Shown here piece after piece: positions 12,764-48,710 of a DNA stretch of 64,000 nt. Source of the stretch: Sipunculus nudus (taxonomy: Eukaryota; Annelida; Sipuncula; Golfingiida; Sipunculidae); the NCBI GenBank assembly GCA_026874595.1, contig CM049306.1, forward strand, positions 39,742,019-39,806,018, read 5' to 3'. The notes beneath the pieces are model-generated. The model was not told the DNA's origin, did no database searches, and saw nothing but the letters and a program-made list of their open reading frames with translations. The position numbers were made by a program, and so were the translations under genes. Position 1 is the stretch's first letter. Each line of letters begins with the position of its first letter.

Positions 12764-12826
12764 AATACTGTCGACCATACGCTACCAGGTCACTCAACTT
12801 CCAATGGATCGCTTACGGCTGTGGCG
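12764..12826 (+). CDS. Membrane-protein gene, penultimate exon (partial gene)
   Basis: A 63-base exon is bounded by a pyrimidine-rich acceptor (tattacttttcag, AG at 12762-12763) and a consensus donor (gtaagt from 12827). Read in the phase that fits the terminal exon at 14448 (two bases, 20 codons, one base), it has no stop and ends in Ala-Tyr-Gly-Cys-Gly, which leads directly into the hydrophobic helix of that exon. Both borders are then phase 1, the usual arrangement for extracellular segments of animal membrane proteins. A second frame is also open, so the phase assignment rests on compatibility with the next exon. Earlier exons and the start codon were not found. Confidence 0.55.
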
Positions 12827-12872
12827 GTAAGTAGAGGATCTTTGTAGGTTGGCCATCCTAGTACCTTAATGT

Positions 12873-13029
12873 AATGGCGTCAATGTTTCAGCAAAGGGGG
12901 TTGAGGTTGAATTGCAGGCTTGGAGTTAATCAAAAGTGGGTCAACTTTTTTTTTATAAACTTTCCACTTGCTAAAAAGGGGGTGTATACGTATACCCCAC
13001 CCCTACTCTTCCTGTATTGACGCCCATTG
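12873..13029. mobile_element. MITE in the intron of the membrane-protein gene
   Basis: Terminal inverted repeats read AATGGCGTCAATG at the left (12873) and TATTGACGCCCATT at the right (to 13028). The interior is about 155 bases with G-rich and C-rich patches. The ends resemble hAT-type termini, but I see no clear 8-base target duplication. Confidence 0.5.
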
Positions 13030-13039
13030 ATTTACATAG

Positions 13040-13930
13040 AAAGAAGGAAGAACCGTCTGCGGTGTAATCAGATTACTTAACACGTTGGACTCTCAGGGAA
13101 CTTCTAAGACGTCACTCGGAACATAAACTTACACGATCGTTGACACAATGGCCATCAAACGTGTAGATATAAGTGTTCAGTGTGACACTCGCTGTCTAGT
13201 AAAGGTGATTTAATCTGACAAATATTCAAAGCAGCTTAAAATAATATCTTACTTCCCCACCGAAAGGGCCATTTTGATTAATTTGCCAACTTCAATCGGA
13301 TCACCTGTGCAGCTACAAAAACCGAGGTAAGCTCAATAGTCCGATTAATTACAAAATCCACCCTAATATTTTAGCTTACACAGGCGTGGTTCAACCTAGA
13401 CCCGTAATACCCTTCGCTGTAGCTTTATTCATTTTCACATGTGTCGTGTGATTATGATAACGTGTTGTCTAATAAATTTTCATTAATGAGTCCATTACTT
13501 CCTTTATATTTGTTGCTAGCTTGTGATAAAACTTTTGAAACCGACTACAGTTTTTTTTGTAGCAAACTGATCTGGGCACGAGTGAAAGGTTCATGAGCCA
13601 GCTTTGGGATGTAATGCTACTAATATTTTAGCCTTTTAATTCAAAATTTCCCCGTCTAATGCGTGCCGATGTTTCATGGTGTTGCACATTGTAATAAATA
13701 TTTAAACTAATGCACTTTAACTCTTTTGACAATAATTATTGTAACATCTTTTCTGGCTAAGTGATATTGGATAAATGGTTAGAAATATCTAATTTGCTTC
13801 AGTATTGACCAGTAAAAGGTTTATTGTTCCTTCCCCGATAACAACATGATAGAAGTCATTTAAATATTGAATGTAATTCTTCATAAATTAAGATTTATAG
13901 ACATGGAATGGAATATACCACCTATTGATC
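13040..13930. other. Intron, no further feature seen
   Basis: AT-rich intron sequence of the membrane-protein gene between the 12873 MITE and the tandem array. No open frame of note. Confidence 0.45.
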
Positions 13931-13933
13931 ATT

Positions 13934-14447
13934 CTTATTTAGTTATTTTGAGGAGCCTTTCTAGTCTGACAACGTACCCCTCATATACCCCCTATTGATA
14001 ATTCTTATTTCGTAAATTCAGGAGCCTGCCTAGTCCTCTAAAGTACCCCTCATATACCACATACTGATCATTCTTATTTAGTAAATTTGAGGAGCCATTC
14101 TAGTCCAAAAATGTACCCCTCATATTACACCTGTTGATCATTCTTATTTAGTAATTTTGAGGAGCCTTTCTAGGGCCGACAACGTGCCATTCATATAACC
14201 CCTATTGATCATTCTTATTTCGTAATTTCAGGAGCCTGCCTAGTCCTATAAAGTACCCCTCATATACCACATACTGATCATTCTTATTTAGTAAATTTGA
14301 GGAGCCATTCTAGTCCAAAAATGTACCCCTCATATTACACCTGTTGATCATTATCATTCTTATTTAGTAATTTTGAGGAGCCTTTCTAGGGCCGACAACG
14401 TGCCATTCATATAACCCCTATTGATCAATCTTATTTCGTAATTTCAG
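13934..14447. repeat. Tandem array containing copies of a splice acceptor
   Basis: About seven to eight units of roughly 70 bases, each with the order tgatcattcttattt, gtaattt.aggagcc, tagtcc, gtacccctcatata. They are grouped into a higher-order period of about 210-225 bases made of three variants, distinguished by ggagcctgcc, ggagccattc and ggagcctttc. The ggagcctgcc variant occurs at 14021, at 14231 and at the true exon junction at 14447, each time preceded by ttcag. The array therefore overlaps the acceptor and the first codons of the terminal exon. It ends where the exon sequence becomes unique. Confidence 0.85.
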
Positions 14448-14656
14448 GAGCCTGCCTAGTCCTGTTCCTGCTGGTGGTCATACTTGCAGTGAAGGTCGTC
14501 CTGCCAGACTGCTGTGTCAAGCCCCGGGATCCCCCTCCCGTGACTAATATGACCGTAGCAGCAGGACCACCCATCACTAAAGTCCCCGTGGAGGACGAGA
14601 AGGAAGAACTCGGCCAGAAAGTTCCGGAGAAAGATGAAATCAGTATAGACTTCTAG
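14448..14656 (+). CDS. Single-pass membrane protein, terminal exon
   Basis: The acceptor aatttcag ends at 14447 and the stop TAG is at 14654-14656. In the phase continuing from 12826 the exon begins Gly-Ala-Cys-Leu-Val-Leu and forms one hydrophobic helix of about 20 residues (LVLFLLVVILAVKVVL). A Cys pair follows (PDCC, a possible palmitoylation site), then a cytoplasmic tail of about 45 residues that is proline-rich (DPPPV) and then acidic (VEDEKEE). This is the layout of a type I membrane protein with a short tail. AATAAA at 14937-14942 supports this as the gene's 3' end. I recognise no family, and no catalytic or signalling motif stands out. The upstream array holds alternative acceptors, discussed as a finding. 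Confidence 0.65.
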
Positions 14657-14936: not shown

Positions 14937-14942
14937 AATAAA
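14937..14942 (+). terminator. Polyadenylation signal AATAAA
   Basis: A canonical hexamer about 280 bases after the stop of the membrane-protein terminal exon. It gives a 3' UTR of ordinary length. Confidence 0.5.
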
Positions 14943-20530: not shown

Positions 20531-20594
20531 GTACACAAGATGATTACAAAACTGTGCACGGCTTAGGGTATATAATTTTCTATTTATCAGCACC

Positions 20595-20900
20595 ATGGGA
20601 TGTACATCTAGTCGCAATAGCAGTCCAGACGGAGCCAACGCTGGAGAGAATGAAGCGGAGAGGTTTGAGTGGCAATTGCAGTTCGCGTGGGAATCCACTG
20701 AAACGGACTCGAACTTCCGGACAAATTCCTCTTACACCGATCTAACATGTGTTGACACTGGCAATAGCATGCCTTCAATAGGTCAAAATGGGGGTCCTCC
20801 CATATGTGTTGCCGGGCAACAAACCGTTTCTGGCCCTTTATTGGAAGTGCCAGGCAAGAAACAGTCAATGGGCGCAAAAAGCAATAAACTTGCACCTGGG
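20595..20900 (+). CDS. Small lipid-anchored protein, exon 1 (Met-Gly-Cys start)
   Basis: The start at 20595 has a strong context (caccatggga). Just before it, ttttctatttatcag (AG at 20589-20590) looks like a splice acceptor, so a 5' UTR intron is likely. The 102 codons begin MGCTSSRNSS: Gly2 with Ser5 or Ser6 fits N-myristoylation and Cys3 fits palmitoylation, which would place the protein on the inner face of membranes. Residues about 19-33 (EAERFEWQLQFAWES) could form an amphipathic helix. The rest is Ser, Thr, Gly and Pro rich and probably disordered. A consensus donor gtaagt starts at 20901, phase 0. Length and start resemble small membrane-anchored adaptor or anchoring proteins, but I recognise no specific family. 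Confidence 0.7.
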
Positions 20901-20939
20901 GTAAGTGAATATAGTGACTGACATCTACAGTCTGTTTGT

Positions 20940-24519: not shown

Positions 24520-24945
24520 GGGGGATGCAGCGTATGCGCCATCCTTAAAAACTGGGTGCGTTATCAGTAAATACGGGATGTAGGATATGCGTCATCCATG
24601 GACAAGGGTTGGAACACTTAGAATCTGGATGTCATCTGGGATGCTGGATATGCGTCATCCTTGGATACTGGATGCAGGACATGCGTCATCCGTTGGTACT
24701 TGATGAAGGATATCCGTCAGCCTTGAATAATGGATGTGGAATATGCGTCATCCCTTGATGTACAATAGGCGGCCGTTCTTGAATAATGGATGCGGAATAT
24801 GCGTCATTCCTGGATGTACGATATGCGGCCGTTCTTAGATAATGGATGTCGAATATGCGTCATCCCTGGATATTGGATGTAAGATATGTGTCATCCATTA
24901 ATATGGGATGTTGTTCATGCGTCACCCTTGGATCATCTATATTGG
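24520..24945. repeat. Degenerate minisatellite, GGATATGCGTCATCC core
   Basis: About ten to twelve copies of a unit of roughly 35 bases with the core ggatgcaggatatgcgtcat and a linker like ccttggatactgg. The copies at 24755-24840 carry a variant ending gcggccgttctt. The degeneracy points to an old array. Related fragments (atactggat) extend beyond both sides. Confidence 0.8.
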
Positions 24946-35189: not shown

Positions 35190-36345
35190 GCGGCAGGGGC
35201 GGTCCGCCCCGGGCGGCACATTTTGGGGGGCGGCATTTCGGGGAATTAGTATAATGAGTGGCATAAGGAGTTGCTCAAAAAGTACAAATTTGGCTTATTT
35301 TGTCCAATTTGAAGTATTTCAGGAATTATAAACTGGGCAGCGGAACCTACCAAATGATTAGCGAACAATTTGCACATATAGGGGAGGGGGCGGCATTTCG
35401 GGGAATTAGTATAATGAGTGGCATATGGAATTTCTAAAAAATACAAATTTGGCTTTTTTGTCCCATTTCAAGTATTTTAGAGATTATAAACTGGGCAGTG
35501 GAACCTACAAAATGAGCAGCGAACGATTTGTTCATTTTAGGGGGCGGCATTTCTGGGATTTAGTACATAACCAGTAGCATAAATTCCTCAAAAAGTACAA
35601 ATTTGGCCCTTTTTGTCCCATTATAAGTATTTTAGAGATTATAAACTGGGGAGTTGGACCTACAAAATGATCAGCGAACGATTTGTACATTTGGTGTGTA
35701 GGGGGGGGGGGGGGGGCATTTCTGAGATTTAGTATAATCAGTGGCATGAGGAGTTCCTCAAAAAGTTCAAATTTTGCCTTTTTGTCCCATTTTCAAGTAT
35801 TCTAGGGATTATAAACTGGGCAGTGGAATCTACAAAATTATCAGCGAACGATTTGCACATTTTTGAGGGCGGCATTTATTGGATTAAGTACATAATCAGT
35901 GGCATAAGGAGTTCCTCAAAAGTACAAATTTGCCCTTTTTGTCCCATTTCAAGTATTTTATAGATTATAAACTGGGGAGTTGGACCTACAAAATGATCAG
36001 CGAACGATTTGTACATTTGGTGTGTGTGTAGGTTGGGGGGGGGGGGGGTAGCATTTCTGGGATTTAGTATAATCAGTGGCATGAGGAGTTCCTCAAAAAG
36101 TTAAAATTTGGCCTTTTTGTCCCATTTTTCAAGTATTCCAGGGATTATAAACTAGGTAATGGAATCTAAAAAATGATCAGCGAACGATTTGCACATTTTG
36201 GGGGGCGGCATTTATTGGATTTAGTACATAATCAGTGGCATAAGGAGTTCCTCAAAAAGTACAAATTTGCCCTTTTTGTCCCATTTTCAAGAATTTCAGG
36301 ATTAAAAACTGGGCTCTGGAACCAACCAAATTATTTCTGGAAGGT
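35190..36345. repeat. Seven-unit tandem array inside the hAT element
   Basis: The anchor ggcggcatttc or a variant lies near 35231, 35391, 35545, 35717, 35870, 36050 and 36206. Spacing alternates between about 155 and 175, so the real period from the third unit on is a dimer of about 330. Each unit also has ttagtataatcagtggcat, aaaagtacaaattt, tttttgtccc and ggattataaactgggcag. Several units carry G runs of 12-17 bases at the same place. Confidence 0.9.
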
Positions 36346-43022: not shown

Positions 43023-43080
43023 ATTGTCTTGGTAAAAAGATTGTAACAGTTGCCATGTTTCTTCGTGCTTCCGTACAGGT

Positions 43081-43110
43081 GTGACGTCACAGAGGTCTTC
43101 ATTACGTCAT
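43081..43110 (+). promoter_or_regulatory. Two CRE-type sites
   Basis: The palindrome GTGACGTCAC at 43081-43090 contains the full CRE TGACGTCA, and ATTACGTCAT at 43101-43110 contains a second CRE-like site. They sit 12 bases apart between the TATA box and the Met codon, so they would lie in the 5' UTR if the TATA box is used. Confidence 0.5.
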
Positions 43111-43148
43111 CGATTTTGCGGTTAATCCTGCTGTACAGATTTATCAAG

Positions 43149-43556
43149 ATGTCGAATAAAACTGCATCAGCATCATCATCGGCATCAAACGGTCAAAACA
43201 TGAAACCTATATTTGGACCACTTCTACCCTTAACGGGTCTTTGGGATGAGCGGGAGTCTCTGATAATACCCACGACCACCGAAAAATGGACCGAAAAAGA
43301 ACAGCTTCACAACCGTGTTAACCAGCTGTTGACAGAGAATCTCAATCTGAAATTAACCCTCAAGGAAAAGGATGACGAAATAAAAAACTTACAAGAAAAG
43401 GTGAGCGAGAACGAGGCATACAGAAAATCACTCAGTAACTTTTTGGGCTTGCTTAAAACCTCTGACATTTTAAACAGAAACTTAGGGGTTTCCCATGTTG
43501 GAGAAAATGAACAAGTTGACAGTCCTTCACACAGCTGTATGGATGAAGTAGACTGA
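43149..43556 (+). CDS. Small coiled-coil protein, single exon
   Basis: I start at Met 43149 (atcaagATGtcg). The frame is open upstream to 43050, but that part lies over the CRE sites and reads as non-coding. The protein has 135 residues: a Ser/Ala-rich start (TASASSSASNG), a Pro/Leu segment (GPLLPLTGLWDERE), then from about residue 48 to 98 a Leu/Glu/Lys pattern typical of a coiled coil (LLTENLNLKLTLKEKDDEIK region), and an acidic C-terminus ending MDEVD. The composition is uniformly coding-like and no stop interrupts it. Promoter motifs upstream and AATAAA downstream frame a compact intronless unit. A retrogene is possible. An acceptor-like tgtacag at 43133-43139 would also allow a spliced 5' UTR. 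I recognise no family; a homodimerising coiled-coil role is inference. Confidence 0.7.
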   Translation: MSNKTASASSSASNGQNMKPIFGPLLPLTGLWDERESLIIPTTTEKWTEKEQLHNRVNQLLTENLNLKLTLKEKDDEIKNLQEKVSENEAYRKSLSNFLGLLKTSDILNRNLGVSHVGENEQVDSPSHSCMDEVD

Positions 43557-48299: not shown

Positions 48300-48710
48300 C
48301 CGGGTATATAAGCAAGAGCACCAAAGCAGCAATCCTACAGAGGAGCTGGTGCTTATCCCCCCCCCCCCCCCCAAGACCATTTGGAGGGATATAGGCAAAA
48401 GCACCAATTAGCAATCCTACAGAGGAGTTGGTGCTTATCCCCTCCCCCCCTCCCCCGAAGACCATTTGGAGGGATATAGACAAAAGCACCAATTAGCAAT
48501 CCTACCGAGGAGTTGATGCCCCCCGAATACCATTTGGAGGGATATACGGTTGGCTAAAGCACCAATTAGCAATCCTACCGAGGAGTTAGTGCCCCCCCCC
48601 CCCCCCCTCCCTGAATACCATTGGAGGGATATAGGCAAAACCACCAATTAGCAATCCTACGGAGGAGTTAGTCCTACCCCCCCCCCCCCCAACACACACA
48701 CACACATGCA
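48300..48710. repeat. Tandem array with poly-C in every unit
   Basis: Four to five units of about 85-115 bases share agcaccaattagcaatccta, c.gaggagttggtgct, a C run of up to 15 bases, and gaccatttggagggatatag. Unit length varies mostly with the C run. The minus frames at 48262-48647 arise from it. Confidence 0.85.

Follow-up and report, generated by a model that had tools for sequence, protein, structure and literature searches.

A minisatellite that straddles an exon edge in the human 6-16/G1P3/IFI6 gene reportedly multiplies a splice donor. One minisatellite that multiplies splice donors is already in print, as far as the reference lists of two articles indicate (PMC2572611; PMC2915984). 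The number of repeats in an intron can also change splicing, as described for TERT VNTR6-1 (PMC11830802) and for intron 5 of canine LHX3 (PMC3223203), where the repeats act, in the parts of these reports considered here, via G-quadruplex or intron length and not via splice-site copying. For AChE-S and AChE-R, it is splicing at the 3' end that determines whether the form is attached or soluble, the latter variant including an intron and exon 5 in frame in the part of the article considered (PMC3678781). Finally, neuroligins are described, in the section cited, as having a non-catalytic cholinesterase-like ectodomain, one membrane helix, a cytoplasmic tail and a C-terminal PDZ-binding RV (PMC2570956).

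The locus analysed here lies in a 64,000-nucleotide stretch of Sipunculus nudus DNA (contig CM049306.1; hereafter the window). Its tandem units cross an exon-intron boundary and carry extra splice-site sequences in register with it, so that it is, by layout, a splice-site-multiplying minisatellite. Like the donor-multiplying minisatellite, as far as that case is outlined in the lists cited above, it multiplies a splice signal; the signal is, however, the acceptor of a last exon instead of a donor, units of about 70 bp are arranged in a 210-bp order, and a membrane helix is predicted to be lost. The predicted protein belongs to the same domain family as AChE, for which the choice of 3' end sets attached versus soluble in the account cited, but copies of one and the same acceptor would do so here, and the protein is predicted without the catalytic serine. 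In a narrow test, restricted to titles and abstract openings of the open-access literature, no clear example of an acceptor being multiplied ahead of a membrane exon was found.

Should the extra acceptors be used, membrane retention or release would depend on a fast-changing repeat, the coding sequence being unchanged. If they are not, 35 bases of local identity would be insufficient to define an acceptor. The near-identical acceptors, which share one intron at distances of about 210-430 bases, constitute a natural experiment on acceptor choice before a last exon, for which an array-free neighbour gene provides a built-in comparison.

The tandem array and the last exon

The array and the end of the predicted gene are composed as follows.

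12764..12826, + strand: predicted coding exon 3, encoding a stalk (YCRPYATRSLNFQWIAYGCG); entry of 2 nt, exit phase 1
12827..14447, + strand: predicted intron 3, with a GTAAGT donor, a TTCAG acceptor and the array at its end
13913..14463, + strand: tandem array of eight units of about 70 bp in a 210-bp higher order (TRF, unit alignment)
14038..14247, + strand: 210-bp block, cut by us at a shared GTCCT
14248..14463, + strand: 216-bp block, near-copy of 14038..14247, with the true acceptor and the opening 16 bases of exon 4 at its end
14448..14656, + strand: terminal coding exon 4, encoding the helix GACLVLFLLVVILAVKVVL and a tail ending in SIDF, stop TAG; top coding score in the window
14937..14942, + strand: likely poly(A) signal AATAAA

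TRF reports the array with a period of 70 at 13913-14462 (score 608) and also with a period of 210 at 13919-14463 (score 945), and such an eight-unit repeat is far beyond chance. The original prediction had described a repeat unit spanning the intron end and the first codons of the last exon, and the alignment of the eight units, which end 16 bases inside exon 4, bears this out; the repeat is real, but the start given for it, 13934, falls 21 nt inside the array. The exon-like starts, anchored on AGGAGCC, are found at 13953, 14022, 14092, 14162, 14232, 14302, 14378 and 14448, with unit spacings of 69, 70, 70, 70, 70, 76 and 70 bases, and AG|GAGCC is kept throughout (8/8 units). In units 2, 5 and 8, the intron part ends in TTCAG and is followed by GAGCCTGCCTAGTCCT; the five other units have TTTGAG or a similar GAG instead of TTCAG.

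Likeness amounts to 90-99% among the three TTCAG units and to 99% between units 3 and 6, and units 4 and 7 are identical across their aligned part, as compared with 68-84% for the other unit pairs. At the level of blocks, 14248-14463 and 14038-14247 are identical at 208 of 210 aligned bases, and the duplication that produced the last block is considered recent, since only two substitutions and six inserted bases separate the two. The duplication keeps the register of the exon: every step contributes an acceptor together with 16 exon bases, and the last copy is the only one to continue into the exon proper.

No other copy of the array was found in the 1.43-Gb assembly by a DNA search in which very common words were skipped, the single match being the locus itself. 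A genome search allowing up to three mismatches, with a pattern that fits the TTCAG units only, gave six matches (five forward and one reverse), versus one with the reversed control pattern. Three of the six are the array locus; the other three belong to another repeat family, which has about 26 bases in common with the array. An origin of the unit from a repeat family was rejected, these off-locus matches being of a different family. Furthermore, RNA folding of the array revealed no structure beyond that of shuffled sequences. All of the 100 shuffles fold more stably than the array (z +2.98), and nothing therefore suggests that its splice sites are hidden.

Extra acceptors and their possible use

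The candidate acceptors provided by the array, besides the true one, are the following.

14022..14041, + strand: decoy exon start 1 (unit 2), CAG|GAGCCTGCCTAGTCCT then TAA; acceptor score 4.39
14232..14251, + strand: decoy exon start 2 (unit 5), matching the true site over 16 exon bases before TAA; acceptor score 7.32
13943, 14082, 14152, 14292 and 14368, + strand: TTTAG sites, moderate acceptor candidates in the five non-TTCAG units

Exon-like starts had been announced at 14022, 14232 and 14448, together with a donor at 12826|12827, and these coordinates are exact. The two extra acceptors of the original prediction are both present, but their number is a minimum, as the five TTTAG sites stand besides them. 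Site 14232 and the true acceptor 14448 are identical over 35 bases, 19 upstream and 16 downstream. With a generic weight matrix, whose frequencies were not trained on Sipunculus nudus, both score 7.32, at the 97.1 percentile of the 3354 AGs of the + strand of the window, and the four TTTAG sites that were scored (14082, 14152, 14292 and 14368) reach 6.25 each, versus 7.32 at the true site. The nearest other AG upstream lies beyond 57-58 nt in the TTCAG units and at 10 nt (TTTAG) in the five others, and a branch-like YTNAY motif is located 24-31 nt upstream of the exon-like start in every unit (8/8). That the array has multiplied an acceptor, as originally proposed, is supported; the acceptor itself probably pre-existed (see below).

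Translation bears out the predicted truncation: splicing from 12826 to either decoy would give GGACLVL and then a stop, at 14039-14041 or 14249-14251. All five TTTAG sites also lead to an early stop. More generally, every AG site listed between 13893 and 14390 meets a stop before the tail, which is reached only from 14448 and from 14451, the 3-base neighbour of the 14448 acceptor. At 14448, the exon ending at 12826 joins in phase and reads through the helix of exon 4 as anticipated; with a hydropathy of 3.0 across 19 residues, this helix is more strongly hydrophobic than any other in the predicted protein.

The predicted decoy product would end after GGACLVL, at about 604 aa, with its domain intact and its helix absent. 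A soluble or degraded product had been proposed; the loss of the helix is indeed predicted, but decay is not. As the best donor within the array scores 2.01, the decoy exon would still be the last exon, and decay via a downstream exon junction was set aside for the same low donor score. Since the decoy stop would lie in the last exon, junction-dependent decay is not expected, and secretion is likelier.

We lean slightly towards the following scenario. In the gene for a cholinesterase-like membrane protein, a minisatellite would have grown in place over the existing acceptor of the last exon, and every expansion by 210 bp would have left behind a complete acceptor (branch-point-like motif, AG-free zone and TTCAG) and 16 exon bases, followed by a stop. 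Because 14232 is locally identical to the real acceptor, the splicing machinery would join some transcripts to this site, the youngest of the extra acceptors. The decoy-spliced messages would then specify a complete ectodomain lacking both helix and tail, and hence a secreted form, instead of being degraded. The decoy acceptors would be a tolerated by-product of repeat growth, regulation not being invoked; regulation through the decoy sites is unlikely. Judging from sequence, some use of 14232 is somewhat likelier than none. As the functional exon sits last, production of the full-length protein requires passing two good and several moderate acceptors. The survival of the full-length exon behind the decoy sites is a point against their use, and, should the protein be required, features that are not visible locally may make the decoys weak in the cell.

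The main alternative, which is doubtful but deserves consideration, is that the extra acceptors are silent and only 14448 is used, the array being neutral intron clutter and the terminal exon being defined by its sequence past base 16 and by coupling to the poly(A) site. Exon sequence past base 16 directly adjoins the true site only, the TTCAG form is absent from five of the eight units, and the more diverged decoy, 14022, is also the weaker one (4.39 versus 7.32), as unused copies would be. However, the 35 bases shared by 14232 and 14448 speak against silence, and a terminal exon initiated at a decoy would still include all the downstream exon sequence.

It seems unlikely that the array works as a heritable dial, each 210-bp block shifting the product from the membrane-anchored towards the secreted form and copy number varying functionally among individuals. 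Every block does add an acceptor in register with the membrane exon, and substitutions between the final two blocks amount to about 1%, pointing to a young duplication that could still vary between individuals. Isoform ratios are, moreover, altered by intron repeats in TERT VNTR6-1 (PMC11830802) and in canine LHX3 (PMC3223203), according to the parts of these reports considered. Yet there is no sign that the decoys are maintained, the more diverged one being weaker: the lower score of 14022 (4.39 versus 7.32) is no less compatible with unused copies that decay than with a maintained function.

Gene model and predicted product

The esterase exons of the gene were found by a scan of the 20 kb upstream of the window. 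Four exons can be joined with an unbroken frame (-18923..-17374, -1494..-1313, 12764-12826 and 14448-14656, relative to the window), two of the introns being about 16 and 14 kb long. We chose the start codon at -18923, the frame being open farther upstream, with an earlier ATG. The predicted product is 667 aa long and begins with a hydrophobic stretch; its one strong helix, at residues 599-617, opens with array-encoded residues.

Exon 4 looks like genuine coding sequence. Under a codon model derived from 14 of 30 kinase loci (the 16 others, with stops in the cut stretches, were dropped), its frame scores 19.6 bits, a value reached by only 2 of the 3468 stop-free 68-codon windows of the 64 kb. 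An overlapping window at 14447 is listed first, the second of these two top-scoring windows is taken to be exon 4 itself, and the next distinct place scores 14.3 bits.

Exon 3 is the weakest part of the gene model. Its codon score is neutral (0.01 bits), and its three frames score nearly equally, so that its frame depends on phase. It ranks 17th among 173 exon-frame candidates in 36 kb, being outranked by the esterase exons and by two short candidates near -14485, and the splice-site sum of another pair, near -9662, comes close to its own. These observations, like the long introns of the model, would fit an error at exon 3, 12764-12826 not being joined to exon 4, but such an error has, in our view, a slight chance only. 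The acceptor and the donor of exon 3 are strong (at the 99.1 percentile among the 3354 AGs of the + strand and at the 99.72 percentile among its 3521 GTs, respectively), its phases are compatible with the upstream exon 2 and with exon 4 and fit throughout the model, and the exit of exon 2 and the entry of exon 4 of the neighbour gene define a corresponding intron in the same phase.

The two exons located in the window gave, when submitted alone, no Pfam match above the cut-off and one below it. The complete predicted protein is a full-length member of the COesterase family (PF00135), with an E-value of 3.3e-129 and 432.6 bits versus a cut-off of 27, its residues 32-560 matching profile positions 7-515 of 515. 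The catalytic Ser is replaced by Glu at residue 231 (GIEAG), the aligned Glu and His being retained, and the predicted protein is thus devoid of the combination of an active carboxylesterase/cholinesterase, i.e., Ser in GESAG with Glu and His. GES[AS]G is present in four of the five family members that were fetched, the exception being the neighbour gene. The gene product is therefore predicted to be a cholinesterase-like membrane pseudoenzyme.

The closest solved relatives of this protein are cholinesterase 6emi (5.3e-77) and neuroligin 8g7d (2.7e-71), and, among the best 60 of 160 structure matches, cholinesterase (262.9 bits) comes before neuroligin (244 bits). Neuroligins have a cholinesterase-like ectodomain without the catalytic residues, one helix and a tail, and the same is predicted here. 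However, they end in RV, according to the section cited (PMC2570956), whereas the predicted protein ends in SIDF; furthermore, its stretch between domain and helix comprises less than 40 residues and its best solved relative is a cholinesterase. As its tail is without RV and the sequence rank is not decisive, the predicted protein was not filed as a neuroligin.

The neighbour gene and the age of the acceptor

A second esterase-like gene is located about 29 kb upstream, on the same strand (matches on contig C1 at 39693174-39694415 and 39723095-39724642). Its COesterase match (2.5e-74) concerns profile positions 14-421 of 515 only, a part of the gene having been read, and its Ser region is lost. 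The two neighbouring esterase-like proteins share 25% identity. Exon 2 of the neighbour has exit phase 1 and contains FWN, a motif of the domain end; its last exon has a 2-base entry and a CAG|GA start, with a helix directly after. The last three exons of the neighbour rest on motifs, alignment and phase, exon 3 having been picked among candidates for fitting phases and splice scores, but the phase agreement between exon 2 exit and exon 4 entry is independent of this choice. The third exons of the two genes gave no clear alignment with each other. TRF found no array in the neighbour stretch, where it reported a TA run only, and the array did not match the last intron and exon of the neighbour.

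As an array-free neighbour has a like junction and the array was not found elsewhere, the acceptor probably predates the array. Most likely, the exon boundary is the older element and the array grew across it, a conclusion based on shared structure and not on aligned bases. The array alone cannot show the direction, because all eight units contain AG|GAGCC, but the reverse order, with an older repeat from which the exon start was recruited, is highly improbable: in the array-free neighbour, an intron of like position and phase is followed by the same GA and immediately by a helix, and the searches described above found the array nowhere else in the assembly.

The two adjacent genes form a tandem pair of predicted membrane pseudoesterases (neighbour: contig C1, 39693174-39700432), unlike four family members from other contigs, which keep the serine motif. 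Between the two genes, about 24-28 kb upstream of the window, open frames resemble by eye a retroelement, with zinc knuckle, reverse transcriptase and integrase-like stretches.

Esterase matches amount to 82 overall, including the gene studied. Clusters of esterase genes are found on contigs C9 (20.26-20.34 Mb), C4 (79.7-82.6 Mb) and C3 (32.0-32.3 Mb), the bulk of the domain lying within one large open exon; in two of the clustered genes, an intron lies, by eye, no more than about two codons from the position of intron 1 in the present gene. In two C9 paralogs, over 10 kb each, homologues of exon 2 were found and no clear last exon with a membrane helix. Weak matches to the tail on C9 (genome-wide E 0.014, 37% over 50 residues, in a 135-aa open frame) and on C3 (E 0.17), which cover the exon 3-4 junction without an intron, could not be tied to an esterase gene and are probably due to chance.

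The window contains three further minisatellite arrays with mixed or higher-order periods, reported by TRF at 24639-24933, 35216-36313 and 48306-48690. An open frame at 43047-43553 (169 aa) includes a coiled-coil-like stretch, its Pfam matches, DUF4806 among them, all being below the cut-off. Another one, at 20544-20918, without a Pfam match at E 0.1, contains MGCTSSRNSS, by eye a possible N-myristoylated start.
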